Both the position numbers and the translations under genes were made by a program. Under the pieces are notes generated by a model. It made no database searches. It saw only the letters and a list, made by a program, of their open reading frames with translations, and had not been told where the DNA came from. From an uncultured SAR86 cluster bacterium (GTDB lineage: Bacteria; Pseudomonadota; Gammaproteobacteria; Magnimaribacterales; D2472), in contig CACMVA010000008.1 in assembly GCA_902617045.1 (NCBI GenBank), forward strand, positions 1 through 36,326: a stretch of DNA of 36,326 bases, written 5' to 3'. This document shows, piece after piece, positions 20,613 through 35,258 of this stretch. Numbering within the stretch: the first letter of the stretch is position 1; the number at the start of each line of letters is the position of its first letter.

Positions 20613-21011
20613 TTATCTATTTTTAAATAGAAAAATAAAAGAAACTGATTGAATAGTACCAATAATAATAAATACAAATATATTTGCCGGTATACCAAAA
20701 GGATTTGGTTCTTCTATACCTTCACCAATTGGAACGCCACCATAAAGTGACATTGTAAATATTGCTGAAAAAAATCCTAACACAATGCTTGAACTTAGCA
20801 GTGCTGGTAATAATAAATAATTACTTACCCATAATAGATATAAACCTATTCCCGCTATGAGTATATTTGTTGATAATCTCCATACCTCATGAACTCTTGA
20901 ATGAGCATCCCAATCTGGATTTAGTAAATGTGTGTGTCCAGTATCAACAATTAATGGGAGCATAGTCCCTAATATTAAACAAATTGTAGTTAAATACTTA
21001 CTAGTCTTCAT
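20613..21011 (-). CDS. Small membrane protein of unknown function (132 aa)
   Basis: I do not recognise a characterised family. The protein has four predicted membrane helices: about 7-23, 49-65, 67-90 and 110-128. A conserved-looking hydrophilic stretch between the first two reads DTGHTHLLNPDWDAHSRVH, rich in His and Asp, which could bind a metal. Its start overlaps the end of the upstream FAH-family gene by 11 bases, so the two are cotranscribed and it probably serves the same catabolic process, perhaps transport or a membrane-bound enzyme. Confidence 0.75.
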   Translation of the reverse strand: MKTSKYLTTICLILGTMLPLIVDTGHTHLLNPDWDAHSRVHEVWRLSTNILIAGIGLYLLWVSNYLLLPALLSSSIVLGFFSAIFTMSLYGGVPIGEGIEEPNPFGIPANIFVFIIIGTIQSVSFIFLFKNR

Positions 21012-21906
21012 CTGAAGGTATTCTAGATTTTATAAACTCAGGAAGATGATCAGCATTGGAATGTTCTTTTACTTTTACACATTTGTTTTCTAGTGTTCCA
21101 ATTCCTTCAATCGAGGTTTTTAATATATCTCCATCTTTTAGGAATTTACCTTGTGTTCCTCCCACACCTGCTGGCGTTCCAGTAAATATGAGATCTCCAA
21201 CGTTTAACGTAATAAATTCTGAAATGTATGAAATTAAATAAGGTATATCAAATATTAGATCATCAGTGTTTGAGTCTTGACGTTTTTCATCGTTTACCCA
21301 GCACTCAATTTTTAATGATTCTTTGTTCTTTAACTCATCTGTAGAGACAATATATGGTCCTATAGGCCCAAATGTATCAAATGATTTTCCTAAACTGAAT
21401 TGAGGAGGGGTAGCATGAAACTGCACAGCTCGATCTGATATATCTTGTCCAACAGTAAGACCTGCAACATGATCCCATGCGTTCTCTTTTGATATATCTT
21501 TACCACCTTTACCTATTACAAATACCAATTCTGCTTCGTAATCAACTAAATCACTCTTCATTTCTATATTTGAACTTGGTCCACTTAAACAAGTAGAAAG
21601 TCTTGTAAATATCAAAGGAAATTGAGGTATTTCCATATTTGATTCTTCAGCATGAGCTTTATAGTTTAAGCCAACGGCAAAAACATTGTTTGGTACAATA
21701 GGAGGATCTAAAGAAACATCATTTAAACTCCCATTTGGTTTAAATTCATCAAGTTTAGAATTTAAGATACTTAACTTTTCTGATGATGCTAAAGCCTCAA
21801 TAGAATTGGATGAAACTTCACCATTTGATATTGTTTCTATATCAAAATAATCATTATCATTTATTAAAATAGCCCTATTATTAATACTACCTAACTTGTA
21901 ACCCAT
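21001..21906 (-). CDS. Fumarylacetoacetate hydrolase (FAH) family protein (301 aa)
   Basis: This is a metal-dependent C-C hydrolase or isomerase/decarboxylase of the FAH/HpaG/MhpD-like group that handles products of aromatic ring cleavage. Visible motifs: VGLNYKAHAEES with His85 and Glu87/Glu88, DYEAELVFVIGKG with metal ligands Glu124 and Glu126, the long GQDISDRAVQ segment, and FTGTPAGVGG near the C-terminus. ATG at 21906 has an excellent ribosome binding site (GGAGAGG, 5 bases away); a GTG at 21912 is less likely. The predicted promoter is overlapped by a perfect copy of the shared operator. Exact substrate unknown. Confidence 0.88.
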   Translation of the reverse strand: MGYKLGSINNRAILINDNDYFDIETISNGEVSSNSIEALASSEKLSILNSKLDEFKPNGSLNDVSLDPPIVPNNVFAVGLNYKAHAEESNMEIPQFPLIFTRLSTCLSGPSSNIEMKSDLVDYEAELVFVIGKGGKDISKENAWDHVAGLTVGQDISDRAVQFHATPPQFSLGKSFDTFGPIGPYIVSTDELKNKESLKIECWVNDEKRQDSNTDDLIFDIPYLISYISEFITLNVGDLIFTGTPAGVGGTQGKFLKDGDILKTSIEGIGTLENKCVKVKEHSNADHLPEFIKSRIPSDED

Positions 21907-21931
21907 AAACACCTCTCCACAATCAAATTCT

Positions 21932-21945
21932 TAGTCAGATGACTA
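21932..21945. promoter_or_regulatory. Operator copy 1 (perfect palindrome), FAH promoter
   Basis: TAGTCA-GA-TGACTA is a perfect 6+2+6 palindrome. It covers the predicted transcription start of the FAH gene. It matches the sites before the 137-residue membrane protein and the aldehyde dehydrogenase at 10 of 14 bases. A TetR-type dimer is the expected binder, and its location over the start site suggests repression. Confidence 0.6.
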
Positions 21946-21972
21946 GTATATATATTTTAAGTAATATTTAAA
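21945..21972 (-). promoter_or_regulatory. Predicted promoter of the FAH operon
   Basis: On the minus strand TTTAAA (21972-21967, 4 of 6 for -35), a 16-base spacer, and TATACT (21950-21945, 5 of 6 for -10). The start site would be near 21938, in the middle of operator copy 1. Confidence 0.4.
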
Positions 21973-22067
21973 GCGTTTAAATTAATACTTTCTGATCAAA
22001 ATATTTATACTATTAGCTAAAAGTATCAGTTTAATCAACATTTTCTTGATCTATCTAAATTATATAT

Positions 22068-22096
22068 TTGAAAAAAATATATAATTTATTTAAACT
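22068..22096 (+). promoter_or_regulatory. Predicted promoter of the TonB receptor gene
   Basis: TTGAAA (22068-22073, 5 of 6), a 17-base spacer, and TAAACT (22091-22096, 4 of 6). The start site would be near 22103, within operator copy 2. The rest of the roughly 230-base divergent region (21907-22137) is AT-rich and shows nothing else I can name. Confidence 0.4.
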
Positions 22097-22100
22097 AAAC

Positions 22101-22114
22101 TAACCAAACGGTTA
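22101..22114. promoter_or_regulatory. Operator copy 2, TonB receptor promoter
   Basis: TAACCA-AA-CGGTTA has 5-base perfect arms (TAACC / GGTTA). It sits directly over the predicted transcription start of the TonB receptor gene. It agrees with operator copy 4 at 10 of 14 positions, the differing bases being matched changes in both arms. Confidence 0.5.
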
Positions 22115-22137
22115 AAACAAATTTTTGGGGAGAAAAT

Positions 22138-24522
22138 ATGTACAAATTATTACTTAAATCAACGTTTATTATATCTATCTCATTTATGCCTTTTTATGCT
22201 TTCTCACAAGATAGTTCTGGTATTGAAGAGGTTATAGTTACTGCAGAAAAGAGAGAACAAAACCTTCAAGATGTTCCGTCATCAATTACTGCTATTTCTG
22301 ATACTGAAATTGAAAGAGCTACTTATCAAAATATGTTCGATTTACAAACATCTGTTCCAAGTCTAGTTGTTGGTTCAGCTGGTGCTTCGAGACCTTTCTT
22401 GTTTATAAGAGGTGTAGGTAGTAGAAAATTTGATCCAGGAACAGAAGGTGCAGTTGGTGTATTTGTAGATGAGATCTATAACACTAGATTTACAAACTCA
22501 ATGATGGATATTGTTGATTTAGAAAGAGTTGAAGTCTTAAAAGGTCCACAAGGAACTCTTTATGGAAGAAATACTATTGGCGGTGCAATTTCTCTTTATA
22601 CTAAAAAACCAACGCAAGAGACTGAAGGTAAAATTAAACTTGGTTTTGGTGATGAAGGCTATAGTAAATTAGCTGCGACATATTCAGGTGGTCTAACAGA
22701 TACAATGGTAGGAAGAATAACTTTCTCATCAAAAACTGATGATGGAAGTAGTACTCATAAAGCGACTGGTAAAAATAATGGGGGAGATAGCGACGCTTTA
22801 AGACTTTCTTTAATTAAAGATATGAATAATGGCTCTGAGCTTTCATTTACCTATCAAGATACTTCATATGAATCTTCAGCACATTTAGCAGAGGCATTTT
22901 TAGAGTGTGGTCCAACTATTGATCCTAATGGTTCTCCAAACTTTATGTCAGTTGCATATTTCAGAGTAGGTGCAGCCGCGTCTCAACTTGCAGCCGCTGG
23001 TATCATGCCAAATGATTGTTACTCAACAGGTCATTTATTACCTTTCTTCCCAGCAGGTCCAAGAGCAGGTCAAATTAATGCAGCTGCATTACCAGTTATT
23101 GGTGCTGATATTGTTCAAAATATGATTCGAGCTGATGTAGCTGATGGCCCAAGAATTATAGATAATGATCATCCTGGTTTTAATAATATTGAGACATCGC
23201 TGATGTCTTTAAAATATGTAACTGATTTATCAGATACATTGACATTGACTGGTATATTTTCAACAACTGATGTGGAGAATCAATCTAGTTTAGATTTCGA
23301 TGCAACATCCAGAAATTCTGTAGTGAATTATGTCGATGAAGAATCAGAACAAACATCTACCGAAATTAGATTAAATTATAACGGCGATAGATTTAACTGG
23401 GTTGGTGGTATATATCTTCTAGATGATGATATTTACAGAAATGATAACTTTACCTCTAACATAGAGTCCACATTTGGAATTGTTCAAATTATGCAAATGA
23501 TGGCTGGTATGACACCTGTTGCCTCTGATAATATGCAAACCTCAAACGCTAATGTTACTTCAGAAGCAATTTATTGGCAGGGCACATATGCAGTTAATGA
23601 CAAACTTAATGCAACACTTGGCGTAAGAAAAAGTGATGATGAAAGTGATTATAGTATTGCTGTAGCAACAACATCACCTGGTATTCCTTTTGTTCAAGTA
23701 CCAGGCGAATGGTCTGAAGTTTTAACATTTGGCTCGACAGATCCAAAGTTTGTTTTGGATTACACATTTGACAATAATTCAATGGCATATATTTCATTTG
23801 CATCTGGCTATAAAAGTGGAGGATTTTCATTTGCAACATGGGCTGAATCTGAGTCAAGAGGTGGTTTTACTGAAGAAGAATTAGATTCTACCGAAATTGG
23901 CTACAAATTTAAGTCTGCTGATAATAGACTTGTTGCTAATTTCGCTTATTACGAGTATGACTATACCGATCAACAACAACAAATTATTGTAGTTACTCGA
24001 TCTGGTTCACTAGCTGGTAAAACGTTTAATGCTGGACAGTCAGAAATGACAGGTTGGGAATTAGAAACAAAGTATGCGATAACTGATAATACTCAAGTTG
24101 ATTTTAATTATTATTCTACTGATACTGAATTTAAATCTTTTGAACTTGCTACAACTGTACCGCCTTTAAGTTTTACTGGTAATCAAATGAATTATTCTCC
24201 AGAAAGTGCATACAATATTGCTCTTACAACTACTTCAAATGATGGTTCTGGAGTTTTACGACTTGCATATTCATTCAAAGACGAATTTTTCATGGATCCT
24301 AGTAATAGATATATCAGTCTTCAAGATAGATATGGCATATATAACATGAGCTATACCAAGTACTTAACTGATAATTGGACAGTAAAAGCGTTCTGTACAA
24401 ACTGTACTGATGTTATTTATAAAACACAAGTTACTACATTTGCAGTGCCATATGGTGGTGGTGGTAGAAATTACTATGCAAATGGAAGACGAGTAGGACT
24501 AGAGATTACTCGTAATTTTTAA
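22138..24522 (+). CDS. TonB-dependent outer membrane receptor (794 aa)
   Basis: This energised outer membrane channel would import a substrate too large or too scarce for porins. A signal peptide (residues 1-23, ending FYAFSQ) is followed by the TonB box region EEVIVTAEKREQNLQDVPSSITAIS, the plug domain with IRGVGSRKFD and VEVLKGPQGTLYGRNTIGGAI, and a beta-barrel ending ANGRRVGLEITRNF with terminal Phe. Two cysteine pairs lie in extracellular or late loops (ECGP...NDCYS and FCTNCTD). The gene has a strong ribosome binding site (GGGGAG) and its own operator. The context suggests an organic substrate such as an aromatic or steroid-like molecule rather than iron; that is inference. Confidence 0.93.
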   Translation: MYKLLLKSTFIISISFMPFYAFSQDSSGIEEVIVTAEKREQNLQDVPSSITAISDTEIERATYQNMFDLQTSVPSLVVGSAGASRPFLFIRGVGSRKFDPGTEGAVGVFVDEIYNTRFTNSMMDIVDLERVEVLKGPQGTLYGRNTIGGAISLYTKKPTQETEGKIKLGFGDEGYSKLAATYSGGLTDTMVGRITFSSKTDDGSSTHKATGKNNGGDSDALRLSLIKDMNNGSELSFTYQDTSYESSAHLAEAFLECGPTIDPNGSPNFMSVAYFRVGAAASQLAAAGIMPNDCYSTGHLLPFFPAGPRAGQINAAALPVIGADIVQNMIRADVADGPRIIDNDHPGFNNIETSLMSLKYVTDLSDTLTLTGIFSTTDVENQSSLDFDATSRNSVVNYVDEESEQTSTEIRLNYNGDRFNWVGGIYLLDDDIYRNDNFTSNIESTFGIVQIMQMMAGMTPVASDNMQTSNANVTSEAIYWQGTYAVNDKLNATLGVRKSDDESDYSIAVATTSPGIPFVQVPGEWSEVLTFGSTDPKFVLDYTFDNNSMAYISFASGYKSGGFSFATWAESESRGGFTEEELDSTEIGYKFKSADNRLVANFAYYEYDYTDQQQQIIVVTRSGSLAGKTFNAGQSEMTGWELETKYAITDNTQVDFNYYSTDTEFKSFELATTVPPLSFTGNQMNYSPESAYNIALTTTSNDGSGVLRLAYSFKDEFFMDPSNRYISLQDRYGIYNMSYTKYLTDNWTVKAFCTNCTDVIYKTQVTTFAVPYGGGGRNYYANGRRVGLEITRNF

Positions 24523-24528
24523 TTTTAT

Positions 24529-24578
24529 AACCCTCTCTTAGGAGAGGGTTTATATCTTACATAAAGATATAATTTTTA
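24529..24578 (+). terminator. Tandem hairpin terminator after the TonB receptor
   Basis: A strong hairpin with arms AACCCTCTC (24529-24537) and GAGAGGGTT (24542-24550) and a 4-base loop is followed at once by a second hairpin, TATATCTT (24551-24558) / AAGATATA (24564-24571), then ATTTTTAT. This should separate the receptor from the GST operon. No convincing promoter or operator copy is visible in the remaining bases up to 24622. Confidence 0.7.
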
Positions 24579-24622
24579 TAATTTATATTATTTATATTTA
24601 TATTTATGATTAAGGTTAATAA

Positions 24623-25474
24623 ATGAATAACTATGTTTTATATGGATATGGTGAATCTGTCGCATCTAATGTTGTAAGACTCGCCTTAGCTGAAAAAAAT
24701 ATACCTTACGACTACAAATTAATATATTTAGAGTCAAGAGGTGATCATCTTAAGGATGATTATAAAAAGTTAAATCCAAAGACTCTTCTTCCAACACTTA
24801 CTGTGAATGAAAAGCCAATATCTGAAAGTATTGATATTATGAGATTTATTGATAATGAACATACTGATCAAGGCTCAACATTATTTCTAAAAAATCAAGA
24901 TGAAGAATTTGATAATTTATTAGATTACTTATTTCTTGATGACACAAAAGAATTAGGTCAAACATTTGGAACAACTGGTGGAGGTATATCGGTTCCTGTT
25001 CTTGGTAAGTTGTTATGCAAAAGATCTTTTTTTTCGGTTTTATGGGATTATTATAAAAATCACGGAGTTAGCAAAAGAAAATTTATTTTTGTTATGGTTA
25101 GATTTTTTGGCGGGCCACCTCCAGGCCTATATGAGAAAATGATGTACTTTTTAGCTAAGCATTTGGTCTACACAGAAAATTACCTAAATCATGGAAAAAC
25201 TTATATATATGGTAATGATTACACTGCAGCTGATTGCCTTTTAACACCATTATTACACAGAGTTAATGAGATGAGATTTCAAGGTGTGTTTGATGGTAGT
25301 AAATTTCCTAACTTATCAAGATATTGGGATACCATATCTAATAGACCAAGTTATAAGGAAGCAATTATTAATTATGAAACTGGTGAATGGAAACCAGTAT
25401 TAGAGGATTTATACGGTGATGGGCCTAACTTGTATAATGATTTATTATGGTCTGAAATAGAAAAAATTAGATAG
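24623..25474 (+). CDS. Glutathione S-transferase family protein (283 aa)
   Basis: An N-terminal thioredoxin-like domain (YGYGESVASNVVRLALAEKNIPYDY, cis-Pro in LLPTL, Glu-Ser of ESIDIMRFID) is followed by an all-helical C-terminal domain with YGNDYTAADCLLTPLLHR. The catalytic Ser is likely in the GESVAS segment. It is longer than the usual 200-230 residues owing to an insertion around 100-165 (the GGGISVPVLGKLL and RFFGGPPPG region). It starts an operon with the dioxygenase (10 bases after its end) and the nitroreductase, so isomerisation or detoxification of a ring-cleavage product, or ether cleavage, is plausible. Substrate unknown. Confidence 0.85.
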   Translation: MNNYVLYGYGESVASNVVRLALAEKNIPYDYKLIYLESRGDHLKDDYKKLNPKTLLPTLTVNEKPISESIDIMRFIDNEHTDQGSTLFLKNQDEEFDNLLDYLFLDDTKELGQTFGTTGGGISVPVLGKLLCKRSFFSVLWDYYKNHGVSKRKFIFVMVRFFGGPPPGLYEKMMYFLAKHLVYTENYLNHGKTYIYGNDYTAADCLLTPLLHRVNEMRFQGVFDGSKFPNLSRYWDTISNRPSYKEAIINYETGEWKPVLEDLYGDGPNLYNDLLWSEIEKIR

Positions 25475-25484
25475 GAGATTATTT

Positions 25485-26576
25485 ATGACAGAACCAATTT
25501 GTAAAGTAGCAGATATTATTTATGTTAGGTTTGAACTTACAGAGTTCGAAGAACAAAAGAAGTACTTTGATCATTTTGGATTGATGCTCGCATATGAAGA
25601 TGAAAATAGTATTTTTTTTAGAGGTTCTGGGACTGCGCCTTATGCATATGTTGCAACTAAAGGTAAAGAAAATAAATACATTGGAACAGCATATAAGGCT
25701 AATGAGTACTCTGACTTAGAAGCATTATCAAAAGAATTTAATGTTGATATTATTGAAAATACTGAGCCTGGTGGTGGCCATAAAGTAACCGTAATAGATC
25801 CTGACGGTATTGAAGTTGAAGTATGCCACGGAATGACGCCTGCTGAACCAGTAGCAGTTGTATCTAAAGTTTTAAATACAGGTCAATCAAAACAAAGAGA
25901 AAACGAACTTCAACGTTTTGGAAAAGCTGCTGACGAATGGCAGGTTGAAGGAGATAAGTGGGTATATAAACTTAAATCTAATGTGAAAAGACTAGGACAC
26001 ACTGCAATTAACTGTAGGGATGCCAAAGCATCAGTAGATTGGTATTCTCGTGTTTTAGGCTTCCTAGTAAGTGATGATGTTTTAGGTCCAGATGGTAATT
26101 CAATTGGAGCTTTTATGAGATGTGATCAAGGAGATAAACCTGTAGACCATCATACGCTTAATAACATTCAACTTCCTGGTGATAACTATCCAGGTCCTTA
26201 TGGCCATTCTGGTTATGAGGTTACCGACTCTGTAGATGATTTAATGGCTGGTCATTATCATATGAAGACTATTGATGAGTATTATCATGAATGGGGAGTT
26301 GGAAGACATCTTTTGGGAAGTCAAATGTATGATTATTGGAGAGATACTCATGGTTTTACACATGAACATTGGACAGATGGCGATCTGTTGGATGCAAGTA
26401 TACCTGAAAACAAAGCGTCGTTTAGAGATGTTGTTATGGCTCAATATGGACCAACTCCACCAATAACATTTGGTGTAACATTGCCTGTTGACCAAATAGA
26501 TAAAGTTAGAGCTGAGCAACCAACGCTTCCTGACCTAATTAAAGAAATGGAAATCGCTGCTAAGAAAGAAGCATAA
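25485..26576 (+). CDS. Extradiol ring-cleavage dioxygenase, type I (VOC superfamily, 363 aa)
   Basis: The protein has two vicinal-oxygen-chelate domains (about 8-125 and 168-305). The second holds a full active site aligned with BphC: iron ligands His172 (LGHTAIN), His241 (GHSGYEV) and Glu294 (HEHWTDGD), equal to BphC His146, His210 and Glu260; the second-shell residues His223, His275 and Tyr284 match His195, His241 and Tyr250. The distances His241-Glu294 and His275-Tyr284-Glu294 agree closely. I therefore expect catechol-type meta-cleavage, not glyoxalase. Good ribosome binding site (TAGGAG). It lies between a GST and a flavin nitroreductase; the MhpA-like hydroxylase at 30268-31848 could make its catechol substrate. 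Confidence 0.82.
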   Translation: MTEPICKVADIIYVRFELTEFEEQKKYFDHFGLMLAYEDENSIFFRGSGTAPYAYVATKGKENKYIGTAYKANEYSDLEALSKEFNVDIIENTEPGGGHKVTVIDPDGIEVEVCHGMTPAEPVAVVSKVLNTGQSKQRENELQRFGKAADEWQVEGDKWVYKLKSNVKRLGHTAINCRDAKASVDWYSRVLGFLVSDDVLGPDGNSIGAFMRCDQGDKPVDHHTLNNIQLPGDNYPGPYGHSGYEVTDSVDDLMAGHYHMKTIDEYYHEWGVGRHLLGSQMYDYWRDTHGFTHEHWTDGDLLDASIPENKASFRDVVMAQYGPTPPITFGVTLPVDQIDKVRAEQPTLPDLIKEMEIAAKKEA

Positions 26577-26580
26577 CAAT

Positions 26581-27243
26581 ATGATTGAATTTACAGACGA
26601 TCAGAAGAAAGCTATTGCTGCTGCTCAAGAGAAATTCACTGATTTAAAAGATAAAGTTGATAGTCTATCTGATGATCAATTAAATTTATTGTTTGGTGAA
26701 GCCAGAAGTATGAATGGTTGGCAGGATAAAGATGTATCTGATGATACCTTAAATCAATTATATTCACTAACTAAAATGGGACCAACAAGTACAAATTGTT
26801 GTCCTGCAAGATTTATTTTTATTAAATCAGATGAACAGAAAAAATTAATTAAAGAGGCACTATTACCTAATAACGTAGATAAATGCATGACTGCACCTGT
26901 TATAGCTATCATTGGTTATGATTTAGATTTTTCTGATCATATGGGTAAGCTTTTCCCACATATGGACGTTGCTCCAATGTATAAGGGGAATCCTGATATG
27001 AACTTATCAACTGCATTTAGAAACTCTAGTCTTCAAGGGGCTTATATGATGATGGTTGCTAGAGCTATTGGCTTAGATTGTGGTCCTATGTCTGGCTTTA
27101 ATAATGACTTAGTTGATGAAATATTCTTTAAAGACACTAATATAAAATCTAACTTTCTTTGTTGTTTAGGTTATGGTGATCCTTCAAAAATATTTATGAG
27201 ATTGCCTAGATTTGAGTTTGATGAGGTTTGTAAAATTATTTAA
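26581..27243 (+). CDS. Nitroreductase family protein, RutE-like (220 aa)
   Basis: An FMN-dependent reductase closest in appearance to E. coli RutE (malonic semialdehyde reductase): LFGEARSMNGWQDKDVSDDTL, MGPTSTNCCPARFIFI, TAFRNSSLQGAYMMMVARAIGLDCGPMSGF. It has about 30 extra N-terminal residues before the conserved core. It starts four bases after the dioxygenase stop, so it is in the same operon and may reduce an aldehyde or enal formed downstream of ring cleavage. The exact substrate cannot be read from sequence. Confidence 0.85.
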   Translation: MIEFTDDQKKAIAAAQEKFTDLKDKVDSLSDDQLNLLFGEARSMNGWQDKDVSDDTLNQLYSLTKMGPTSTNCCPARFIFIKSDEQKKLIKEALLPNNVDKCMTAPVIAIIGYDLDFSDHMGKLFPHMDVAPMYKGNPDMNLSTAFRNSSLQGAYMMMVARAIGLDCGPMSGFNNDLVDEIFFKDTNIKSNFLCCLGYGDPSKIFMRLPRFEFDEVCKII

Positions 27244-27249
27244 TTATCT

Positions 27250-28104
27250 TTAGAAATCTACAAGATCTGTGAGATATTTACCTTTCAATTTGTTATAAAT
27301 TTTCAATATTACCTTGGTTATTTTCAGTAAAAATATTGGGTTAGCTTCTTTTTTAAAATTACTGTCTTTATCTAATTTATCAAACCAATTTTTAACGTTT
27401 TTATATTTATCTATTGGAATACCGGCTTCATATAAACGTTTTGTAGAAACATACCATGCTAAGTCAACAATCGTAAACTCATCTCCTTTAAGAAAGTTTT
27501 GATTCTTTAAGATAGTATCAAATTTTGAATATATATCTTTAAATTTATTTCCACTTTCAATAACTTCATCATCTGTAATGCCATGATCATAATGTTTTTT
27601 CCAAAAAGATATTTCTTTTTCTTTGTAAGCATCACCTTGTCCTTGAATTGTTCCATCATGTGATTCTTTAAAATCAATTTTTTTAGGATCTTTTTTACCA
27701 AGAATATGAGGTACTATATATCTAAATGTTAATCTTCTAAGATCAAAATGTAGGCTGTCTTGATAATCTAGATCTTTTTTAATTTCATTAATTAAATTTG
27801 TCGGAAATAATTTAGTGTTTGGAAACTCTTGATCTAAGTATGTCATTATATCGTTACTTTCAATGTGAACATCGCCATTATGAACTAAAGTAGGTACCAA
27901 TCCTCTTGGATTTATTCCAAGGTACCATTCTGAGAATTGATCTCCTTTTATAAGATTAACTTCGTGGGAGACCCAATCAATATTTTTATAATTTAAAAAT
28001 ATTCTTAATTTTTGTGAACAAGCTGAGCCTTGAAAATGAAATAAATGAACACCTTTCCATTCTAATACTTCGGTTGTCTTGATATCAATTTTATCTAATT
28101 TCAT
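27250..28104 (-). CDS. Glutathione S-transferase family protein (284 aa)
   Basis: The thioredoxin-like N-terminal domain carries FQGSACSQKLRIFLNYKNI with both Ser and Cys candidates at the active site, VPTLVHNG with the cis-Pro, and ESNDIMTYLDQEF. The helical C-terminal domain has GDEFTIVDLAWYVSTKRL. It is longer than usual and unlike the GST at 24623. Its ATG directly abuts the sulfatase stop, so it is the last gene of the hydroxylase-TetR-sulfatase-GST operon. The Cys-containing active site recalls Cys-type (Lambda/Omega, LigG-like) GSTs, but this is only a resemblance. It converges on the nitroreductase with six bases between. Confidence 0.83.
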   Translation of the reverse strand: MKLDKIDIKTTEVLEWKGVHLFHFQGSACSQKLRIFLNYKNIDWVSHEVNLIKGDQFSEWYLGINPRGLVPTLVHNGDVHIESNDIMTYLDQEFPNTKLFPTNLINEIKKDLDYQDSLHFDLRRLTFRYIVPHILGKKDPKKIDFKESHDGTIQGQGDAYKEKEISFWKKHYDHGITDDEVIESGNKFKDIYSKFDTILKNQNFLKGDEFTIVDLAWYVSTKRLYEAGIPIDKYKNVKNWFDKLDKDSNFKKEANPIFLLKITKVILKIYNKLKGKYLTDLVDF

Positions 28105-29667
28105 TTAAAAAAATAATTTTGATGATTTAAGCTTTCTAATTAAAAATATTACAGCAGTTAAGAAAAGGATAAATCCAATTAAATAATATTTAAAAGCAAG
28201 AATCATAACCCAAGCCATAATGAAAAAACTTTTTGTTGGGGAGGGGTATTCACTTATATCATAGTCCATTTCAAGCCATGGTGATCCAATTACAGGACCT
28301 CCCTCAGTGTCTCCATAATTATAAAAATGTGCTGGGTCAATTATTGGAATTACTTCCCTTTGTTTCATGCCCATCATAGTTTCTTTCATTGAGTTAAAAA
28401 CCTCTAGTTCAATCTTAGATAAATCTTTAGTTTCAAATGGATCATCATTTACATTGAATAATGAATAAGTTCCTTCTACATCAAGCATTACTGGTTTTCG
28501 AAAATGCAACTTCCATTCATCATTAAATAAAGCTCGTTCATCAAATACTATTTTTGCTCCAACAAAATCATTATTTGGAGCTATAAGATTACCAGTAATT
28601 AAACTTTGCCATTTGTCAGTTCCATCAAAGGCTATTTGATCACTGACTTCTATCTCTGCTGCTGTTAACAAGGTTGGAAGTAGATCTTGAACAAATATAT
28701 ATTGATCGCTTTTTGAGTTACCTAAAACTCCTTTCCACATTATACTTGCAGGAACTCTTATGCCCCCTTCATGTGCAGAAGCTTTACTTCCACGGAGTCC
28801 AGCTGTACTCCCTCTAGAATGAGTCAAGCCTGGTGCTAATACAGCAACGATAGGGTTTATATCAAATACAGGGCCATTATCACTAAAAAAAACAATTATT
28901 GTTTCTTCTAATATTCCTTGACCTTCAATTGTATCGATTATTTTTCCAATCTCAGTATCCAGAGCATTAACATTTGCTGCATATGCTCTATCAAGTGGAT
29001 CTTCAATATAATTAAATAATTCTATATTCTTTTCAGGAGCCTGAATTGGAGTGTGGGGTGCGTTAAAAGCAATATAAAGAAAAAGGGGTCGATTTGGATC
29101 TTTGTTTTCAATAATTCTAATTGCTTCATTTGCAATAAGCTCAGTTGAATAACCATCTTCATATAGAGGCTCCTCATTTCTGTGCCAATCTAATCTTGAT
29201 GAATGCACATGGTCAAAGTATCCAATTCCTCCTAGCATGTTTCCATAACTTTGATCAAAACCTCTGTTTGTAGGCCAATATTCTTTCAAATGAAGTCCCA
29301 AATGCCATTTACCTGAGAGGGCAGTTTGATAGCCTGCTTCTTTAAAAAACTGAGGCATTATTTTTAAATCTGCCGGCAGCCCATATTGCTCTGCAGTTGG
29401 ATTTGCCAAGGGTCTAATAATGCCATGATTAAATATATGAAGACCTGTTAATAATGATGCTCTTGTCGGACTACAAACAGGGCTTGCGTAAAATCTGTTA
29501 AGTTCAAGACCATTTTTAGCTAATGCATCTATATTTGGAGTTGGAATATGTCCCCCATGGTATGAGACATCACCCCAGCCCATATCATCGGTGAGTATGA
29601 TAATTACATTTGGCTTGGAATGAATGTTTGCACTTAAGAGCAATATTATTAATATTAATATTTTCAT
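28105..29667 (-). CDS. Sulfatase (formylglycine-dependent, 520 aa)
   Basis: An exported sulfatase. The signal peptide ends near SANIHS (residues 1-17). The catalytic core has Asp27-Asp28 as metal ligands (ILTDDMGWGD), the activation motif CSPTR with Cys65 to be turned into formylglycine, GKWHLG, and FSDNGP. An unusual C-terminal membrane helix (about 485-511) ends in a basic tail, so the enzyme is likely tethered to the inner membrane facing the periplasm. The length is typical of arylsulfatase A-like enzymes. No formylglycine-generating enzyme is in the window. It overlaps the TetR stop (ATGA), tying it to that operon: desulfation of a sulfated organic substrate is suggested. Confidence 0.9.
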   Translation of the reverse strand: MKILILIILLLSANIHSKPNVIIILTDDMGWGDVSYHGGHIPTPNIDALAKNGLELNRFYASPVCSPTRASLLTGLHIFNHGIIRPLANPTAEQYGLPADLKIMPQFFKEAGYQTALSGKWHLGLHLKEYWPTNRGFDQSYGNMLGGIGYFDHVHSSRLDWHRNEEPLYEDGYSTELIANEAIRIIENKDPNRPLFLYIAFNAPHTPIQAPEKNIELFNYIEDPLDRAYAANVNALDTEIGKIIDTIEGQGILEETIIVFFSDNGPVFDINPIVAVLAPGLTHSRGSTAGLRGSKASAHEGGIRVPASIMWKGVLGNSKSDQYIFVQDLLPTLLTAAEIEVSDQIAFDGTDKWQSLITGNLIAPNNDFVGAKIVFDERALFNDEWKLHFRKPVMLDVEGTYSLFNVNDDPFETKDLSKIELEVFNSMKETMMGMKQREVIPIIDPAHFYNYGDTEGGPVIGSPWLEMDYDISEYPSPTKSFFIMAWVMILAFKYYLIGFILFLTAVIFLIRKLKSSKLFF

Positions 29668-30254
29668 TTCTTAATAATTTTCTTAAATCCAGATTCTCTT
29701 GCATCAAAAAAGAATTTCATAAAAACTTTTTTATCATTTGCAGACATCTCTAACACTTCATCAATATACTTTTCCATTGAAGCCAAGCCAAATTCAACAA
29801 CCATAGCTATTGCCACAGCTGATTTAATTTCAGAATTTGGTTTTTTTAAATTTTTTAATTTTGTAAGTTGTTCAAGTGTGTTTCTTGAAGCAGATAAATT
29901 TGAATCTATTTGAACTCTTACTAAATCCATTTGATCATCAAGTACAGCTCTTATAATTGCTTTGAAGTAATCGTCAGTTATGGTTGATAGTGGTTCGTCT
30001 CCAAGGTTAGTGGGTGATACATCTCTCCTTTCTAATTGTTGAACATGTTCAAATGCCAATTGTTTGTATGTAGCAATTAATAGACCTTTTTTACCACCGA
30101 AATAATGATGAATCTGAGCATGATTTACTCCAGCATGCTCAGCAATATCTCTAATAGTGAGTTGATTTGGGCCTACCGATCCAACAAGATATGATGCAGA
30201 ATCTATCAGACGCTTTTCAACATTTTTTCTACCTCTTCTATTATTATCAGCCAT
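29664..30254 (-). CDS. TetR-family transcriptional regulator (196 aa)
   Basis: The N-terminal helix-turn-helix is clear: QLTIRDIAEHAGVNHAQIHHYFGGKKGLL (about residues 31-59, split here by no gap). The C-terminal ligand domain is generic. ATG at 30254 gives MADNNRRGRKNV; an in-frame start at 30314 would overlap the hydroxylase gene by 47 bases and add an unrelated-looking stretch. It lies 13 bases after the hydroxylase and overlaps the sulfatase, so it is transcribed from the promoter region that holds operator copy 3. I infer that it is autoregulated and binds the 14-base palindromes at 21932, 22101, 31877, 32455 and perhaps 74. Confidence 0.9.
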   Translation of the reverse strand: MADNNRRGRKNVEKRLIDSASYLVGSVGPNQLTIRDIAEHAGVNHAQIHHYFGGKKGLLIATYKQLAFEHVQQLERRDVSPTNLGDEPLSTITDDYFKAIIRAVLDDQMDLVRVQIDSNLSASRNTLEQLTKLKNLKKPNSEIKSAVAIAMVVEFGLASMEKYIDEVLEMSANDKKVFMKFFFDARESGFKKIIKK

Positions 30255-30267
30255 TTTTGTATGAATA

Positions 30268-31848
30268 TTAATGCTTAAAAAGCTCTCCTTTGAGTTTTGT
30301 AATAAGTTTATCAATATTATTAATAATATCTACATTATCCACACAACCATATATATGTTGATCTGGTCGAATTATTGCAGCAGATATATTATTTTCTTTA
30401 GCCCAATTACAAATCTTTTTATCTTGATTAAATTTATTATCTTCTGTCATTAGATGAATATTATTCTCAAAAATTTTTGCTGATTCTAAATTTTTAATTT
30501 CATTGAATACATTTATATCATTTTGAAATAGTAAAATTCCAAAATTGTTGCCAAGATATTGATCAAATAATTTATTATCAACTTTAATATCAAGGGAAGG
30601 GTGAGGAATAATTACACCATTAACATCATTAGGGAATAGATCATTATCAATCATTCCATTTTTAATTTTCCATGGCTTTTGAAATTTTAAAGGTTTTAGA
30701 AGTTTTGGTATATAACTAGCAACATTAAGATAAATGTCTCTTATGGTTGCTGTTAACCAATCTTGACTTCCAATTATATCGCCTTGTTTCATTGCGCCTT
30801 TTATTACAAAATCTACAATTCCTTTTCTTTCTAATGAATATGTATTGAGAATTTCTTTATTAAAAATGTTATTCATTACGCCTGACAATTTCCAACATAA
30901 GTTATATGAATCCTTTATACCTTGGCATAGACCTTGTCCTAAAAACGGAGGCATTTGATGGGCAGCATCACCTAAAAGAAAACAATTATTAAATTTAAAA
31001 TTTTTTGCTAATAGGCCATGAAATGTATAAGCACTAGATCTTAACAACTTACCACTATGCAGTGGAATTTCTGGATTTAGCCTCCAAAGATGTGGCTTCA
31101 TCATTTTACGTATATTTTTTTCGTCTTCTAATGTCGCTAAATTATCATCAGGATTAACCTTAAATTCCCATCTTACGTGTTGTCCTGTTATTGGAACAAT
31201 TGTTGTTGGTCTTTTATAGTCACATATCTGATATCGATCAGTGTTAATCTTATATTTATCATCTACCTGATAATCTACAACCACCCAATCTTGGTCACAT
31301 TTATAATCAAATGATTCTATATTTAATGCCTTTCTAACAAAACTATTAGCACCATCACAAGCTAAAACATAATTACTTGTTATATATTCATTTTCTTCGT
31401 TGTTTATATTTAATAAAGTTAAATTATTAATAGATTCTTGAGCATCAATATTTGTTAACTTATAGCCAAGTTTTATATCAATATTATTATGTTTAATAGC
31501 TTCACTTCTTAAAAAATTTTCAAATATAGGTTGATTAAAGAAAACACTTTCATCATAACCATTAATTGGCTCATCAAGCTTAAGATTAATATTTACAATT
31601 GATTTACCTTTATTATTTAAAAAATTAATTCCTTCCATTGGATGAATAATTTTTGAAATTTCATCCATAAAGCCCATTGTTTGAAATATTCTTTGAGTTT
31701 GTCCATCAAAATGAACAGCCCTTGGAATATCCCAAATCTCTTTTTTTGGTTCTATTACAATTGTATTGAAACCTTTTTGTCCAAATAAATTTGCTGTAAC
31801 AGCACCGACAGGACCATAACCTATAATTGCAATATCATAATTTTTCAT
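30268..31848 (-). CDS. FAD-dependent aromatic hydroxylase, MhpA-like (526 aa)
   Basis: A class A flavoprotein monooxygenase. The FAD-binding GYGPVG is at residues 10-15 with Glu33 at the end of strand 2. The DG motif (ACDGANSFVRK) and the GD motif (LGDAAHQMPPFLGQGLCQGIKDSYNLCWKL) are complete. A C-terminal thioredoxin-like domain ends with ISAAIIRPDQHIYG, as in MhpA (3-(3-hydroxyphenyl)propionate hydroxylase), TfdB and PheA relatives. Such enzymes ortho-hydroxylate phenols to catechols using NAD(P)H and O2, which would supply the extradiol dioxygenase. First gene of a four-gene operon; it is divergent from the 137-residue membrane protein, with the shared operator between them. Confidence 0.87.
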   Translation of the reverse strand: MKNYDIAIIGYGPVGAVTANLFGQKGFNTIVIEPKKEIWDIPRAVHFDGQTQRIFQTMGFMDEISKIIHPMEGINFLNNKGKSIVNINLKLDEPINGYDESVFFNQPIFENFLRSEAIKHNNIDIKLGYKLTNIDAQESINNLTLLNINNEENEYITSNYVLACDGANSFVRKALNIESFDYKCDQDWVVVDYQVDDKYKINTDRYQICDYKRPTTIVPITGQHVRWEFKVNPDDNLATLEDEKNIRKMMKPHLWRLNPEIPLHSGKLLRSSAYTFHGLLAKNFKFNNCFLLGDAAHQMPPFLGQGLCQGIKDSYNLCWKLSGVMNNIFNKEILNTYSLERKGIVDFVIKGAMKQGDIIGSQDWLTATIRDIYLNVASYIPKLLKPLKFQKPWKIKNGMIDNDLFPNDVNGVIIPHPSLDIKVDNKLFDQYLGNNFGILLFQNDINVFNEIKNLESAKIFENNIHLMTEDNKFNQDKKICNWAKENNISAAIIRPDQHIYGCVDNVDIINNIDKLITKLKGELFKH

Positions 31849-31853
31849 AGTAA

Positions 31854-31897
31854 ATAGTTTATGAGTTGATTTATTTTAGTCAAGTGGTTAGGATGTT
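31854..31897 (+). repeat. Duplicated promoter block, copy A
   Basis: This 44-base segment is 40/44 identical to 32432-32475. It contains -35 TTGATT (31866-31871), a 17-base spacer, and -10 TAGGAT (31889-31894). The operator is in the spacer. It lies upstream of the 137-residue membrane protein and within the divergent region of the hydroxylase operon. Confidence 0.75.
31877..31890. promoter_or_regulatory. Operator copy 3, between the hydroxylase operon and the membrane protein gene
   Basis: TAGTCA-AG-TGGTTA lies in the spacer of the predicted plus-strand promoter, overlapping the first bases of its -10. It is about 30 bases from the hydroxylase start codon, so a bound regulator could control both directions, including its own operon. 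Confidence 0.6.
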
Positions 31898-31931
31898 ATG
31901 TTCAAATCACTTAAAGATTGGGAGAAATAAA

Positions 31932-32345
31932 ATGGTCGAATTTGAAATTAGTAATAACTTCTCTATTGGATTTATAGGGCGGGTAATGTTTATGTTTGCC
32001 ATGTTATTCTTGTTATGGATGGTGTTTAAAGTTATTGCTTTAGCTCACGAAAGAGGTTCAAATTTATTTCAAAAAATACTCGGAACAACAATTTCTGGAT
32101 GTGTTTTGATTTTTAATTTATTAGCATGGAATAGATTTCCAGCATTCTTCAACAATTGGGCTTACAGTTTGTCTCAATTAGACTCTTTGAGTCCAGGTGG
32201 ACAAAGGTTTGTAGATAATATGGAGCCTACTGGCTATCTTGACGCAGGATTAGTACCCTCTGATCCAGTAAGCACAGTTTTTTGGCTTGGCATAGCCATT
32301 GCTCTATTGATGGGAATATGGACAGCTCCTAACCCTAAAGCTTAA
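31932..32345 (+). CDS. Small membrane protein of unknown function (137 aa)
   Basis: I do not recognise the family. Three membrane helices are visible: about 12-34, 45-66 and 112-130, with a loop of about 45 residues between the last two (SQLDSLSPGGQRFVDNMEPTGYLDAGLVPSD). ATG at 31932 has a ribosome binding site (GGGAGA, about 7 bases before); an earlier TTG would lie on the promoter itself. Its promoter and operator are nearly identical to those of the aldehyde dehydrogenase operon, so it is almost certainly part of the same pathway, perhaps for transport or as partner of a membrane enzyme. Confidence 0.8.
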   Translation: MVEFEISNNFSIGFIGRVMFMFAMLFLLWMVFKVIALAHERGSNLFQKILGTTISGCVLIFNLLAWNRFPAFFNNWAYSLSQLDSLSPGGQRFVDNMEPTGYLDAGLVPSDPVSTVFWLGIAIALLMGIWTAPNPKA

Positions 32346-32371
32346 AAAAACCTTTAGAGCGGTCTTTTAAA
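32346..32371 (+). terminator. Possible weak terminator after the 137-aa membrane protein
   Basis: AAAACC followed by TTTAGAGC and GGTCTTTT can form an imperfect A/T-rich hairpin with a bulge, ending in a short T run. Weak, but it stands between this gene and the next promoter. The rest of the 32346-32504 gap is AT-rich up to the promoter block. Confidence 0.3.
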
Positions 32372-32431
32372 ATTTAAAATCTTAATTATTTTCAAGGCAA
32401 ACATATTTAAGATATTATCCTTTCTTGGTAT

Positions 32432-32475
32432 ATAGTTAATGGGTTGATTTATTTTAGTCAACTGGTTAGGATATT
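32432..32475 (+). repeat. Duplicated promoter block, copy B
   Basis: Second copy of the 44-base block, with four mismatches to 31854-31897. -35 TTGATT at 32444-32449, 17-base spacer, -10 TAGGAT at 32467-32472. It drives the aldehyde dehydrogenase operon. Confidence 0.75.
32455..32468. promoter_or_regulatory. Operator copy 4, aldehyde dehydrogenase operon
   Basis: TAGTCA-AC-TGGTTA lies in the promoter spacer and overlaps the -10, exactly as in copy 3. It differs from copy 3 by one base, in the central dinucleotide. Confidence 0.6.
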
Positions 32476-32504
32476 TAGACCAACTTATTATAAAGGGGAG
32501 TTTT

Positions 32505-33992
32505 ATGTACAAAGTTGATCACTTTATTAACGGAAAATCATCGTCTGAATCTAATAAAACATCAAAAATATATAATCCTTCATATGGAACTGAAATTGGA
32601 GAAGTCTTATGTGCAACAAATGAGGTTGCTGATAAGGCTGTTGAATCTGCCTATGAAGCATCAAAAGCTTGGTCAAAAACTGGATTAATCTATAGATCAG
32701 AGTTAATTCTAAAATTTAGACAAAATGTCATTAATAGGTCTAAAGAAATAATTGATTTAGGTATAAGTGAGGCTGGAAAAACTCGACCAGATGCCGAGGC
32801 TGAGCTTGATAGGGCAGTTCAAGCATTGACTCATATTGCTGGCGTTCAACACTTTTACCCATCTCACTATAGTCAAAATGTTGCAGGTGGAATTGATATA
32901 GCTGACTTAAGATTTCCTATTGGTGTTGTCGTTGGCGTGGGTCCTTTTAATTTTCCAATCTTGATTCCATTATTGCACAGCGCCATGGCATTGGTGACTG
33001 GAAATACTTATATTGGCAAACCCAGCGAAAAAGTTCCCTCTGTGTCTAGGCTATATGCTGATATATGGAAAGAATCTGGCCTTCCAGATGGTTGTTATAA
33101 TGTTGTTAATGGTGACAAAGAAACAGTTGAATTTTTGGTCCGTCATGAAAAAGTTGATGGCTTAGCATTTATTGGTAGCACAGCTGCTGCAAAAAGCTTA
33201 AAAATGCTCGGAGTTGAGCATAATACAAAAGTTCAAGCTCTGGGCGGTGCCAAAAATCACATGATTGTACTTCCTGATGCTGATTTAGATATGTCAGCAG
33301 ATGCTGCAGTTTCTGCTAGTTTTGGTGCTGCTGGCCAAAGATGCATGGCTGTCTCTGTTGTTGTAGCTGTTGGTGATATAGCAGATGAACTCTTAGATAA
33401 AATTAAAGAAAGGATGCCGAATTTGATCATGGGTGTTACTGATGATGATAAAACACAGTTAGGACCAGTTATCTCGCCTGAAAATAAAGATAGAATTTAT
33501 TCATTTATTAATAGTGCTGAACCTGATGGGGCAACTTTAGTTGTAGATGGAAGAATTAGATCTAATTCATTGGAGGGATGTTTTGTGGGTCCGACATTAA
33601 TTGATAACGTTAAACCAGGTATGGCTGTATATGAAAATGAAATTTTTGGACCTGTATTATCTTTTGTCAGAGCTAAAACTTATGATGAAGCTATGAAAAT
33701 TACTAATTCAAATAATTTTGGAAATGGAGCTGCTTTATTTACACGTGATGGTGGTGTTGCAAAAAAATGGTCTGATGAGATTCAGGCTGGTTCAGTGGGT
33801 ATTAATGTACCAATTCCTTTGCCAACTTATGCGCATAGTTTTGGTGGTTGGAAGGACAGTGCATTCTCGGAAACTAAAGGTTTTGGTCCATCAGCAATTG
33901 AGTTTTATACAAAGACCAAGTCCTTATCAACTCGTTGGCCAGATCCTGCTGACAGTAAGGTTGATTTAGGATTCCCAAGAAATGATAACTAA
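32505..33992 (+). CDS. CoA-acylating aldehyde dehydrogenase, methylmalonate-semialdehyde dehydrogenase type (495 aa)
   Basis: The MmsA/IolA group oxidises malonate or methylmalonate semialdehydes to acetyl- or propionyl-CoA using NAD and CoA. The signatures are clear: GPFNFPILIPLLHSAMALVTGNTYIGKPSEKVP, LGGAKNHMIVLPDADLDMSADAAVSASFGAAGQRCMA with catalytic Cys280, and ENEIFGPVLSFVRA. The length is typical. A strong ribosome binding site (AGGGGAG) precedes ATG at 32505. The promoter holds the shared operator. It overlaps the next gene by 11 bases. In this setting it probably converts an aldehyde from ring cleavage or side-chain removal to an acyl-CoA; the exact aldehyde is unknown, so I give no symbol. 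Confidence 0.9.
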   Translation: MYKVDHFINGKSSSESNKTSKIYNPSYGTEIGEVLCATNEVADKAVESAYEASKAWSKTGLIYRSELILKFRQNVINRSKEIIDLGISEAGKTRPDAEAELDRAVQALTHIAGVQHFYPSHYSQNVAGGIDIADLRFPIGVVVGVGPFNFPILIPLLHSAMALVTGNTYIGKPSEKVPSVSRLYADIWKESGLPDGCYNVVNGDKETVEFLVRHEKVDGLAFIGSTAAAKSLKMLGVEHNTKVQALGGAKNHMIVLPDADLDMSADAAVSASFGAAGQRCMAVSVVVAVGDIADELLDKIKERMPNLIMGVTDDDKTQLGPVISPENKDRIYSFINSAEPDGATLVVDGRIRSNSLEGCFVGPTLIDNVKPGMAVYENEIFGPVLSFVRAKTYDEAMKITNSNNFGNGAALFTRDGGVAKKWSDEIQAGSVGINVPIPLPTYAHSFGGWKDSAFSETKGFGPSAIEFYTKTKSLSTRWPDPADSKVDLGFPRNDN

Positions 33993-35220
33993 TTTCTTAG
34001 ATCGATTAATAAGCATCCTTTCTTATATCGTATTTGTATTTATTGATATATATATAAATCTTCGTATATTCTTCAGAGGTACTTCATCAAATAAAAAACT
34101 AAATTTTAAGGAATATTTTATTTCTATTGAAAATGAAGATCATACAATTAGTGAGATTGGTGAACATCAAGCAACTTCAGATAAAACCTTATTGTTAATT
34201 GGTGGCATACCAACAGATCCAATTGAATCAATGTCATGGTTGGCATATGAGCTTCATAAAATTGATTCAACCCTTAGAATAATTATTTTAAATATGCCTT
34301 ATTATGATGAGCGCTTTGATATCGAATATTCTGATGAATTTGCCATTTCTAACGGCGAAAGTTTCATAACTCGAAAAGAAATTGATTTTTCAACTCATAA
34401 AATTGATCCAAAATTTAGCCATATTAATCAATCAAAAACAGTTAATTTAATAATGAATAAAATGGAAATTGACGCTGCTCATGTTATTGGGCACGATAGG
34501 GGAGCTGTTATTCTAGAAAATCTTTGTATTAATAACCCAGAAAAGGTAATTACCTACTCAAGAGCTGCGCAAGTTTGGAATTATATAGAGCCTGAATGGA
34601 AAAATTTAGCTCCGAAAATTCCTATTGGTCCTCCACATAAATTAATGTCTATATATCATCAATTTAGAATATTGTTCTTTCAAGTCTTGAATTTCAACAA
34701 ACCAATTCGTTTACTTTCTGAAACATTTGAAATTAATGCAAAATCATCAAAAAAAGATAATGATCTTTATGATAGATACACAATTCTAAAGTATAAATCT
34801 CAAGTTTCTTATAAAAAATATTTCAAAAAAATTCAACAATCTTTTATTCAAGGAGGTCTGGATATTGAGGTGCAGAATAGAATAAAACTAAAAAATACCT
34901 CGATACCCATAATGCAATTCCAAGGGGAGGATGAATTTAAAAGAGCGTCCAACGGATCTCTTATTTCTGATCAACCATATTTTGGAAAATATAATTTATT
35001 TAGAAATGAAATTGAAGATATTTACCCATCGGCTGTAGATCAATCGTCAGTACCTCTAAAAAAAGAATATCTTTCTGATTTAGGTTTATATAAAGAAATT
35101 CAATTAAAGGAAGAGGCTACATTCAATAAATTTTGTTTAATTCCAGATGCTGCACATTTTAATGTAATTGAAAATCCAAGAGCATGTGCACATGCCATTT
35201 ATGATTTTATTAACACATAA
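33982..35220 (+). CDS. Membrane-anchored alpha/beta hydrolase with Asp nucleophile (412 aa)
   Basis: An N-terminal membrane helix (about 5-32) precedes an alpha/beta hydrolase fold. The nucleophile elbow reads GHDRG with Asp172, and the late His is His392 in DAAHFNVIENP. An Asp nucleophile is the mark of haloalkane dehalogenases and epoxide hydrolases. The usual oxyanion motif HGNP/HGFP is replaced by GGIPTD, and there is a large cap-like insertion (about 200-330). I do not recognise a characterised subgroup. It overlaps the aldehyde dehydrogenase by 11 bases and is followed by a second Asp-nucleophile hydrolase. Confidence 0.8.
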   Translation: MITNFLDRLISILSYIVFVFIDIYINLRIFFRGTSSNKKLNFKEYFISIENEDHTISEIGEHQATSDKTLLLIGGIPTDPIESMSWLAYELHKIDSTLRIIILNMPYYDERFDIEYSDEFAISNGESFITRKEIDFSTHKIDPKFSHINQSKTVNLIMNKMEIDAAHVIGHDRGAVILENLCINNPEKVITYSRAAQVWNYIEPEWKNLAPKIPIGPPHKLMSIYHQFRILFFQVLNFNKPIRLLSETFEINAKSSKKDNDLYDRYTILKYKSQVSYKKYFKKIQQSFIQGGLDIEVQNRIKLKNTSIPIMQFQGEDEFKRASNGSLISDQPYFGKYNLFRNEIEDIYPSAVDQSSVPLKKEYLSDLGLYKEIQLKEEATFNKFCLIPDAAHFNVIENPRACAHAIYDFINT

Positions 35221-35223
35221 GTC

Positions 35224-35246
35224 TTAGAGGATACTTGAACCTCTAA
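35224..35246 (+). terminator. Hairpin between the two alpha/beta hydrolase genes
   Basis: Perfect 7-base arms TTAGAGG (35224-35230) and CCTCTAA (35240-35246) with a 9-base loop, just after the stop of the first hydrolase. The T run after it is poor, so it may attenuate or protect mRNA rather than fully end transcription. Confidence 0.4.
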
Positions 35247-35258
35247 TATTTGATAACT

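Follow-up and report, generated by a model that had tools for sequence, protein, structure and literature searches.

A predicted TetR-family operator regulon in a putative aromatic-catabolism gene cluster of a SAR86 bacterium

The DNA considered here, a stretch of 36,326 nucleotides from an uncultured SAR86 cluster bacterium (hereafter the window), is contig 8 of a genome of 1,155,266 bases in 21 contigs that is 87.5% complete. It carries four 14-base-pair (bp) palindromic sites in the upstream regions of genes that read as an uptake and catabolic cluster. We propose that they serve as operators of a single regulon under the control of the TetR-family protein encoded at 29664–30254, which would act as a repressor and be released from the DNA by a metabolite; the probability of this reading is put at about 0.87.

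Four dyads and their predicted promoters

The four sites described in the initial annotation were found to read exactly as given, and their sequences and positions are plain in the DNA. Predicted operator 1 (21932–21945; TAGTCAGATGACTA, a perfect dyad) lies upstream of a FAH-family gene and has an edge base in common with the minus-strand -10 hexamer TATACT; its position is kept in five related genomes (G004, G008, G022, G006 and G030). Predicted operator 2 (22101–22114; TAACCAAACGGTTA), upstream of the TonB-dependent receptor gene, is located 4 bases 3' of TTGAAA-N17-TAAACT (22068–22096) and over the expected start site. Predicted operator 3 (31877–31890; TAGTCAAGTGGTTA) separates the minus-strand mhpA-tetR-sulfatase-glutathione S-transferase (GST) operon from a plus-strand gene for a small membrane protein and is situated inside TTGATT-N17-TAGGAT (31866–31894), and predicted operator 4 (32455–32468; TAGTCAACTGGTTA), upstream of an aldehyde dehydrogenase gene of the (methyl)malonate-semialdehyde dehydrogenase (MMSDH) type, is inside the same hexamer pair at 32444–32472.

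In the window, the tight pattern TARYCANNYGRYTA has 7 strand matches, at 4 places; 100 dinucleotide shuffles averaged 0.18, and none of them reached 7. The whole genome holds six places of this pattern and four of them are the window sites, which answers the concern that the motif might occur at random throughout the genome. The fifth is within a 283-amino-acid open reading frame (ORF) read as a MoxR-type ATPase, and the sixth at the 5' end of a gene read as infC. The loose form TARYCANNTGRYTA, with up to 2 mismatches, was at chance level (31 seen, 29 expected); hence only the tight form of the motif is informative.

That each site lies on a predicted promoter, as had been claimed, was borne out in part by our promoter scan. 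The scan placed a -10-like hexamer on the edge base of the FAH site, a second one whose end is 4 bases short of the TonB-receptor site, and, on the minus strand, a promoter for mhpA-tetR (TTGACT-N16-TAAACT) that overlaps the site at 31877; the number of promoter-like hexamers is taken up below. The TTGATT-N17-TAGGAT pair around operators 3 and 4 fell below the scan threshold. Exact copies of it occur twice each in G000 and G004 and also in L051 and L053, and the remaining orthologous regions displayed have weaker variants. For the dehydrogenase and membrane-protein promoters the dyad lies within the -35/-10 spacer, and for the FAH gene and the receptor it starts at the -10 (TATACT, TAAACT) or a few bases past it and spans the expected start. 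This conserved arrangement is evidence that outweighs the promoter scores.

Binding, repression rather than activation, and an inducer are what we infer for these sites. A TetR dimer would bind the 14-bp dyad either in the -35/-10 spacer (membrane protein and aldehyde dehydrogenase, in the former case also over the opposite-strand mhpA promoter) or in the start region past the -10 (FAH and TonB receptor), and the bound dimer would keep RNA polymerase off these sigma-70 promoters. A pathway metabolite, probably the aromatic substrate or an early intermediate, would bind the C-terminal domain and free the DNA, and release would switch on together TonB-receptor uptake, desulfation, ring hydroxylation, ring cleavage and the lower-pathway genes. 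Because tetR lies in the operon behind operator 3, we propose that the protein limits its own synthesis. Some TetR-family proteins activate, and the site-to-start distances differ between genes, as might be expected of a TetR that binds these sites mainly as an activator or as a dual regulator; against this, a dimer bound at these sites, which lie between the -35 and the -10 or across the start region, should obstruct polymerase, and we regard a mainly activating or dual role as quite unlikely.

Conservation in the SAR86 order and beyond

Conservation of the dyad was evaluated in 21 loci that have this gene cluster (14 from the SAR86 order and 7 SAR92/Porticoccaceae-like, partly near-duplicates). 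Of 72 in-cluster motif places, 71 were intergenic, although intergenic DNA amounts to 36,324 of 279,546 bases (13%); two further places lay outside the cluster bounds. The pattern behind this count was widened after the orthologs had been inspected. The intergenic region between mhpA and the MMSDH gene bears a site in 13 of 13 testable SAR86-order loci and in 7 of 7 SAR92-like loci, with G088 left out because its contig ends inside mhpA. Conservation at orthologous promoters, which the initial annotation had tied to its claim, was thus found. In the six loci with divergent FAH and receptor genes (G000, G004, G006, G008, G022 and G030), a site is 19–31 bp from the FAH start and 23–34 bp from the receptor start. 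When all 360 permuted half-sites were compared, the widened class TA[AGT][CT]CA-N2 ranked first, with 45 occurrences against a mean of 2.5 in 13 SAR86-order loci and 19 against 0.4 in the seven SAR92-like loci. The earlier consensus fits the four window sites; what the relatives show is a broader form, TADYCANN(T/C)GRHTA, and a family form, TAGNCRNNYGNCTA.

Where genes have moved, the sites often appear to have followed. The sulfatase gene is apart from tetR in five genomes (G006, G008, G017, G022 and G030), and in three of these (G008, G022 and G030) it has its own site 36–42 bp before it. G048, G034 and G088 have a different receptor protein (about 25–41% identity in the aligned parts) in inverted orientation, and sites persist between the receptor and GST genes.

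A scan of genome contigs with the TetR alignment yielded 42 loci, among which seven SAR92/Porticoccaceae-like loci (L059, L060, L064, L069, L070, L072 and L077; 42–48% guanine plus cytosine, GC) have the same kind of cluster. The dyad TAGCCANNTGGCTA was present in all seven, in 18 exact copies, and had the top count of all 6-mer dyads at spacers 0–8. In six of the seven, two sites lie 15 bp apart in front of the TonB receptor (L059, 4419/4434; L060, 4580/4595; L064, 5007/5022; L072, 4174/4189; L069, 3187/3202; L070, 4887/4902), a spacing at which two dimers could sit on roughly opposite faces of the DNA. The contig L069, from a bin labelled Planktomarina, has the same cluster with matching spacings as L070 from a Cellvibrionales bin, which may reflect either a mis-binned contig or a transfer.

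Among the zero-mismatch places of the exact form TAGTCANNTGACTA listed for 100 genomes, only one was outside such clusters (G061, in an ORF read as cdsA). The relaxed pattern occurred outside the cluster at 44 places in 8 genomes, of which we examined 21, including all 7 of the window genome, together with G000:C5:32500. Thirteen of these 22 places were inside ORFs of at least 80 codons, five had no ORF start within 150 bp, and four had one: L104 (87 bp before a 164-amino-acid ORF), L105 (75 bp), L116 (42 bp before a 109-amino-acid ORF) and L118 (57 bp). L105 (G000:C2:68461) and L118 (G022:C8:5790) are the same place in two species, with TATCCATTTGGTTA and TATCCATTTGGCTA, respectively, before a second TonB-receptor-like gene and apparently upstream of its -35; this gene is a weak candidate for an additional member of the regulon.

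The TetR protein and its proposed link to the dyad

The regulator encoded at 29664–30254 on the minus strand is a protein of 196 amino acids and the product of the second gene of the mhpA operon. Its TetR_N helix-turn-helix scored above the curated cut-off (PF00440, 42.6 bits; cut-off 24), which places it in the TetR family, and the AlphaFold (AF2) model, with a predicted local distance difference test (pLDDT) value of 93.6, indicates a confident TetR fold that shares the all-helical architecture of solved family members. A Foldseek search gave 11 PDB matches at E ≤ 0.001, headed by 2fbq, 9i1x (CecR) and 7e1n (PhlH), with template-modelling (TM) scores of about 0.6–0.7. Three named assignments were tried and rejected: BetI (NCBIfam equivalogs 51.3 bits against a cut-off of 118 and 47.6 against 201.3), KstR as a family (equivalog 23 bits against 280) and RutR, of which no model appeared in the 9 matches to NCBIfam (E ≤ 0.001) and whose structural match, ranked 24th, has 19% identity to the window TetR. 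The recognition helix, VNHxQIHHYF, was invariant over 32 aligned sequences.

Within named genomes, the top-scoring relatives come from SAR86 cluster bacteria (AG-360-N22, 96% identity). Of 100 related genomes, 16 had a TetR match at E ≤ 0.001 and 10, the window's own included, one at ≥54% identity; in a class-wide sample the TetR was found at E ≤ 1e-25 in 1 of 369 genomes, namely the window's own. No relatives were confirmed in viral contigs, and four plasmid records had one, all below 60% identity, with a single record covering 80% of the query. Co-occurrence with the cluster is directly observed: 9 of the 10 genomes with the TetR at ≥54% identity have the catabolic cluster, the exception being G020.

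The 300 bp upstream of each of 24 distant TetR genes, which had been retrieved by means of DNA-binding-region peptides, were scanned. In a motif-free scan of all 6-mer dyads at spacers 0–10, CTAGAC-N4-GTCTAG came first, with 9 of the 24 genes at 11 of 12 matches; in 30 shuffles the best-placed dyad reached 2.3 genes on average and never more than 3. The complete family form TAGNCRNNYGNCTA was upstream of 11 of the 24 (mean 0.01 and maximum 1 in 200 shuffles). Eight of the bearers are labelled Deltaproteobacteria, Myxococcota or Myxococcales; the others are the unlabelled marine bacterium TMED88 and the Gammaproteobacteria L064 and L070. In L074 (66% GC), an exact TAGTCAATTGACTA is about 1.2 kb upstream of tetR, with its end 6 bp short of the ATG of an ORF that extends into the beginning of the tetR ORF. 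The distant lineages share neighbours in part, with FAH beside tetR in L063, L065, L073, L075 and L076 and mhpA-like and extradiol genes in L075. A dyad of this type before the regulator's own gene in 11 of 24 relatives lends good support to the step that the initial annotation had marked as inference, that the TetR at 29664–30254 runs the sites. Five Acidimicrobial ORFs (L079, L080, L082, L084 and L086) of 402–436 codons, about twice the usual TetR length, have the same TetR helix and may each be a fusion of two TetR units; the 300 bp upstream of them contained no operator of this type.

Several observations weigh against the reading of these sites as operators of this TetR. With respect to the motif, the relaxed pattern has background places in 98 of the 100 related genomes, and AT-rich dyads such as ATAATA (10 of 13 loci) ranked above the exact TAGTCA dyad taken by itself (7 of 13) in SAR86. 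The form with T at position 3 and the TAGNCR form were both picked after the relatives had been inspected, and the 71 intergenic places do not count as independent events, given the relatedness of the loci, which include near-duplicate pairs (G000/G004, L059/L060 and L069/L070). Promoter-like hexamers were not more numerous than in shuffles (4 against 2.5 and 4 against 3.1), and in two of the five genomes with a relocated sulfatase no good site was seen upstream of it (G006, weak, score 11.4 at 165 bp; G017, none by pattern). If the four sites were chance AT-rich dyads in an AT-rich genome, the background level of the loose motif and the wide occurrence of the relaxed pattern would be expected; the presence of TAGCCANNTGGCTA in 7 of 7 SAR92-like loci of 42–48% GC would not, and a chance origin, rejected on the genome-wide counts, the permuted half-sites and the orthologous promoters, is extremely improbable.

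The remaining points concern the protein. TAGNCRNNYGNCTA was missing within 300 bp in 13 of the 24 distant genes, seven of them Acidimicrobial; the other six are L058, L059, L072 and L077 (the last three with sites at other cluster promoters), L074 and L062 (13 of 14 positions). Since no site is present in the 300 bp before tetR in L059, L072 and L077, or before 13 of the 24 distant genes overall, autoregulation is not general. The identity of the helix in the distant homologs is partly a matter of selection, as the fetching peptides came from the DNA-binding region. In the genome G020, an open frame of 201 codons (G020:C8:6755–7309; L014, L035) encodes a TetR of 57% identity whose recognition helix is the same; this genome, with 8 relaxed-pattern places listed, has no mhpA-like or extradiol gene, no cluster and no matching dyad near this TetR. 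Both G020 and the 13 genes lacking the dyad would fit sites that belong to another DNA-binding protein encoded elsewhere, the TetR being a neighbour with other targets. This alternative seems improbable to us, considering that 11 of the 24 distant genes, from several classes, have the same dyad before them, that a single TetR match at E ≤ 0.001 is present in the window genome, and that the Pfam scan of the 14 window proteins from 20613 to 36113 revealed no other regulator and no second helix-turn-helix family. Moreover, mhpA-like orthologs of at least 55% identity were found in 10 of the 100 relatives, nine of which are the cluster genomes with this TetR, and in the tenth, G017, the contig ends before the place expected for tetR.

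Gene content, known systems and significance

The assignments below combine the Pfam scan with NCBIfam equivalog scores. On the minus strand, operator 1 precedes the HpcE/HpaG-like FAH-family hydrolase/decarboxylase (21001–21912; PF01557, 222 bits), followed downstream by a protein of 132 amino acids without a family match (20613–21011). On the plus strand, operator 2 precedes the TonB-dependent receptor (22138–24522; PF00593 and PF07715), a GST (24623–25474), a VOC-type extradiol dioxygenase-like protein (25485–26576; PF00903, 36.4 bits; HpaD, 48.2 bits, below cut-off) and a RutE-like malonic semialdehyde reductase (26581–27243; NF003768, 269.9 bits, cut-off 152). The minus-strand genes behind operator 3 apparently form a single operon, which comprises an MhpA-like FAD-dependent aromatic hydroxylase (30268–31848; NF004829, 400.8 bits, cut-off 390), tetR, a sulfatase (28105–29667; PF00884, 188.7 bits), probably co-transcribed with tetR because it overlaps the end of that gene, and a second GST (27250–28104), whose nearest equivalog, maleylacetoacetate isomerase, was below cut-off. 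On the plus strand beyond it are the small membrane protein of 137 amino acids (31932–32345), the MMSDH-type coenzyme A (CoA)-acylating dehydrogenase (32505–33992; TIGR01722, 506.2 bits, cut-off 448.5), a protein without a family match (33982–35220) and an alpha/beta hydrolase matching a haloalkane dehalogenase-type model (35250–36113; NF002938, 332.7 bits, cut-off 241). Among the loci compared, the small membrane protein gene occurs only in G000 and G004; in the window it lies in the mhpA/MMSDH interval (31849–32505) accompanied by another, almost identical promoter-operator, as though the gene had arrived together with a promoter copy.

The gene set would correspond to uptake with aromatic ring hydroxylation and cleavage, and the enzyme matches allow only a general reading of the substrate. 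The RutE-like reductase and the MMSDH-type dehydrogenase fall in one predicted regulon, which suggests (methyl)malonic semialdehyde as a pathway product.

Among known regulators, PhlH (7e1n, solved with 2,4-diacetylphloroglucinol) is one of the best structural matches (TM 0.69 by query length), with 14–15% identity. The E. coli pyrimidine regulator RutR has the half-site TTGACCA with a 2-bp centre; the window cluster has a RutE-like gene, and no rutA-type gene was noticed in it. RutR resembles the present case in having a palindromic box, of about 16 bp, upstream of its targets (PMC10891134). KstR (Rv3574) is a TetR repressor of cholesterol and lipid degradation in mycobacteria whose repression extends to its own gene and to a large set of catabolic genes, and its TAGAAC-N2-GTTCTA, a 14-bp palindrome with a 2-bp centre and TAG...CTA ends like those of our sites, partly overlaps the -10 of the kstR promoter (PMC1995591). 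The half-site core differs, AAC in KstR against NCR here, as do the phylum, the genes and presumably the ligand; none of the four window sites has the AAC-N2-GTT of the KstR operator TnnAACnnGTTnnA, the common features being length, centre and outer TA/TAG bases. MbdR, a TetR repressor of 3-methylbenzoate degradation in Azoarcus, likewise serves an aromatic cluster and has operators over several promoters including that of mbdR, relieved by a CoA intermediate of the pathway; it differs in its operator, ATAC-N10-GTAT, and in its anaerobic CoA pathway (PMC4424350). Nothing describing this regulon or operator was present among the literature matches listed (open-licence papers, mostly titles and the starts of abstracts), nor did those on SAR86 include a paper on such a regulon. 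The predicted regulon is apparently an unreported, well-conserved example of a familiar repressor-controlled arrangement and mechanistically ordinary.

Judging from the genomes compared, we lean towards the view that this TetR and its operators form an aromatic-catabolism module recurring in SAR86, in SAR92-type Gammaproteobacteria and in some Myxococcota/Deltaproteobacteria, in which one half-site position of TAGNCRNNYGNCTA has drifted from lineage to lineage (TAGTCA, TAGCCA, TAGACA). The protein would then represent a little-explored TetR subfamily whose operators mark genes for a marine aromatic, perhaps sulfated, substrate.

The interest of these findings is mainly for the biology of SAR86, which is counted among the most abundant bacterial groups of the surface ocean and long resisted isolation, and in which ring-cleavage genes for aromatics and steroids are reported to be widespread, along with putative arylsulfatases and many TonB transporters; the string 'transcriptional regulat' does not occur in the text of that study as searched (PMC11582366). 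A defined operator would give an objective list of genes that are likely switched together and so narrow down the substrate, and the same module in SAR92-clade genomes may permit a test in cells that can be grown.

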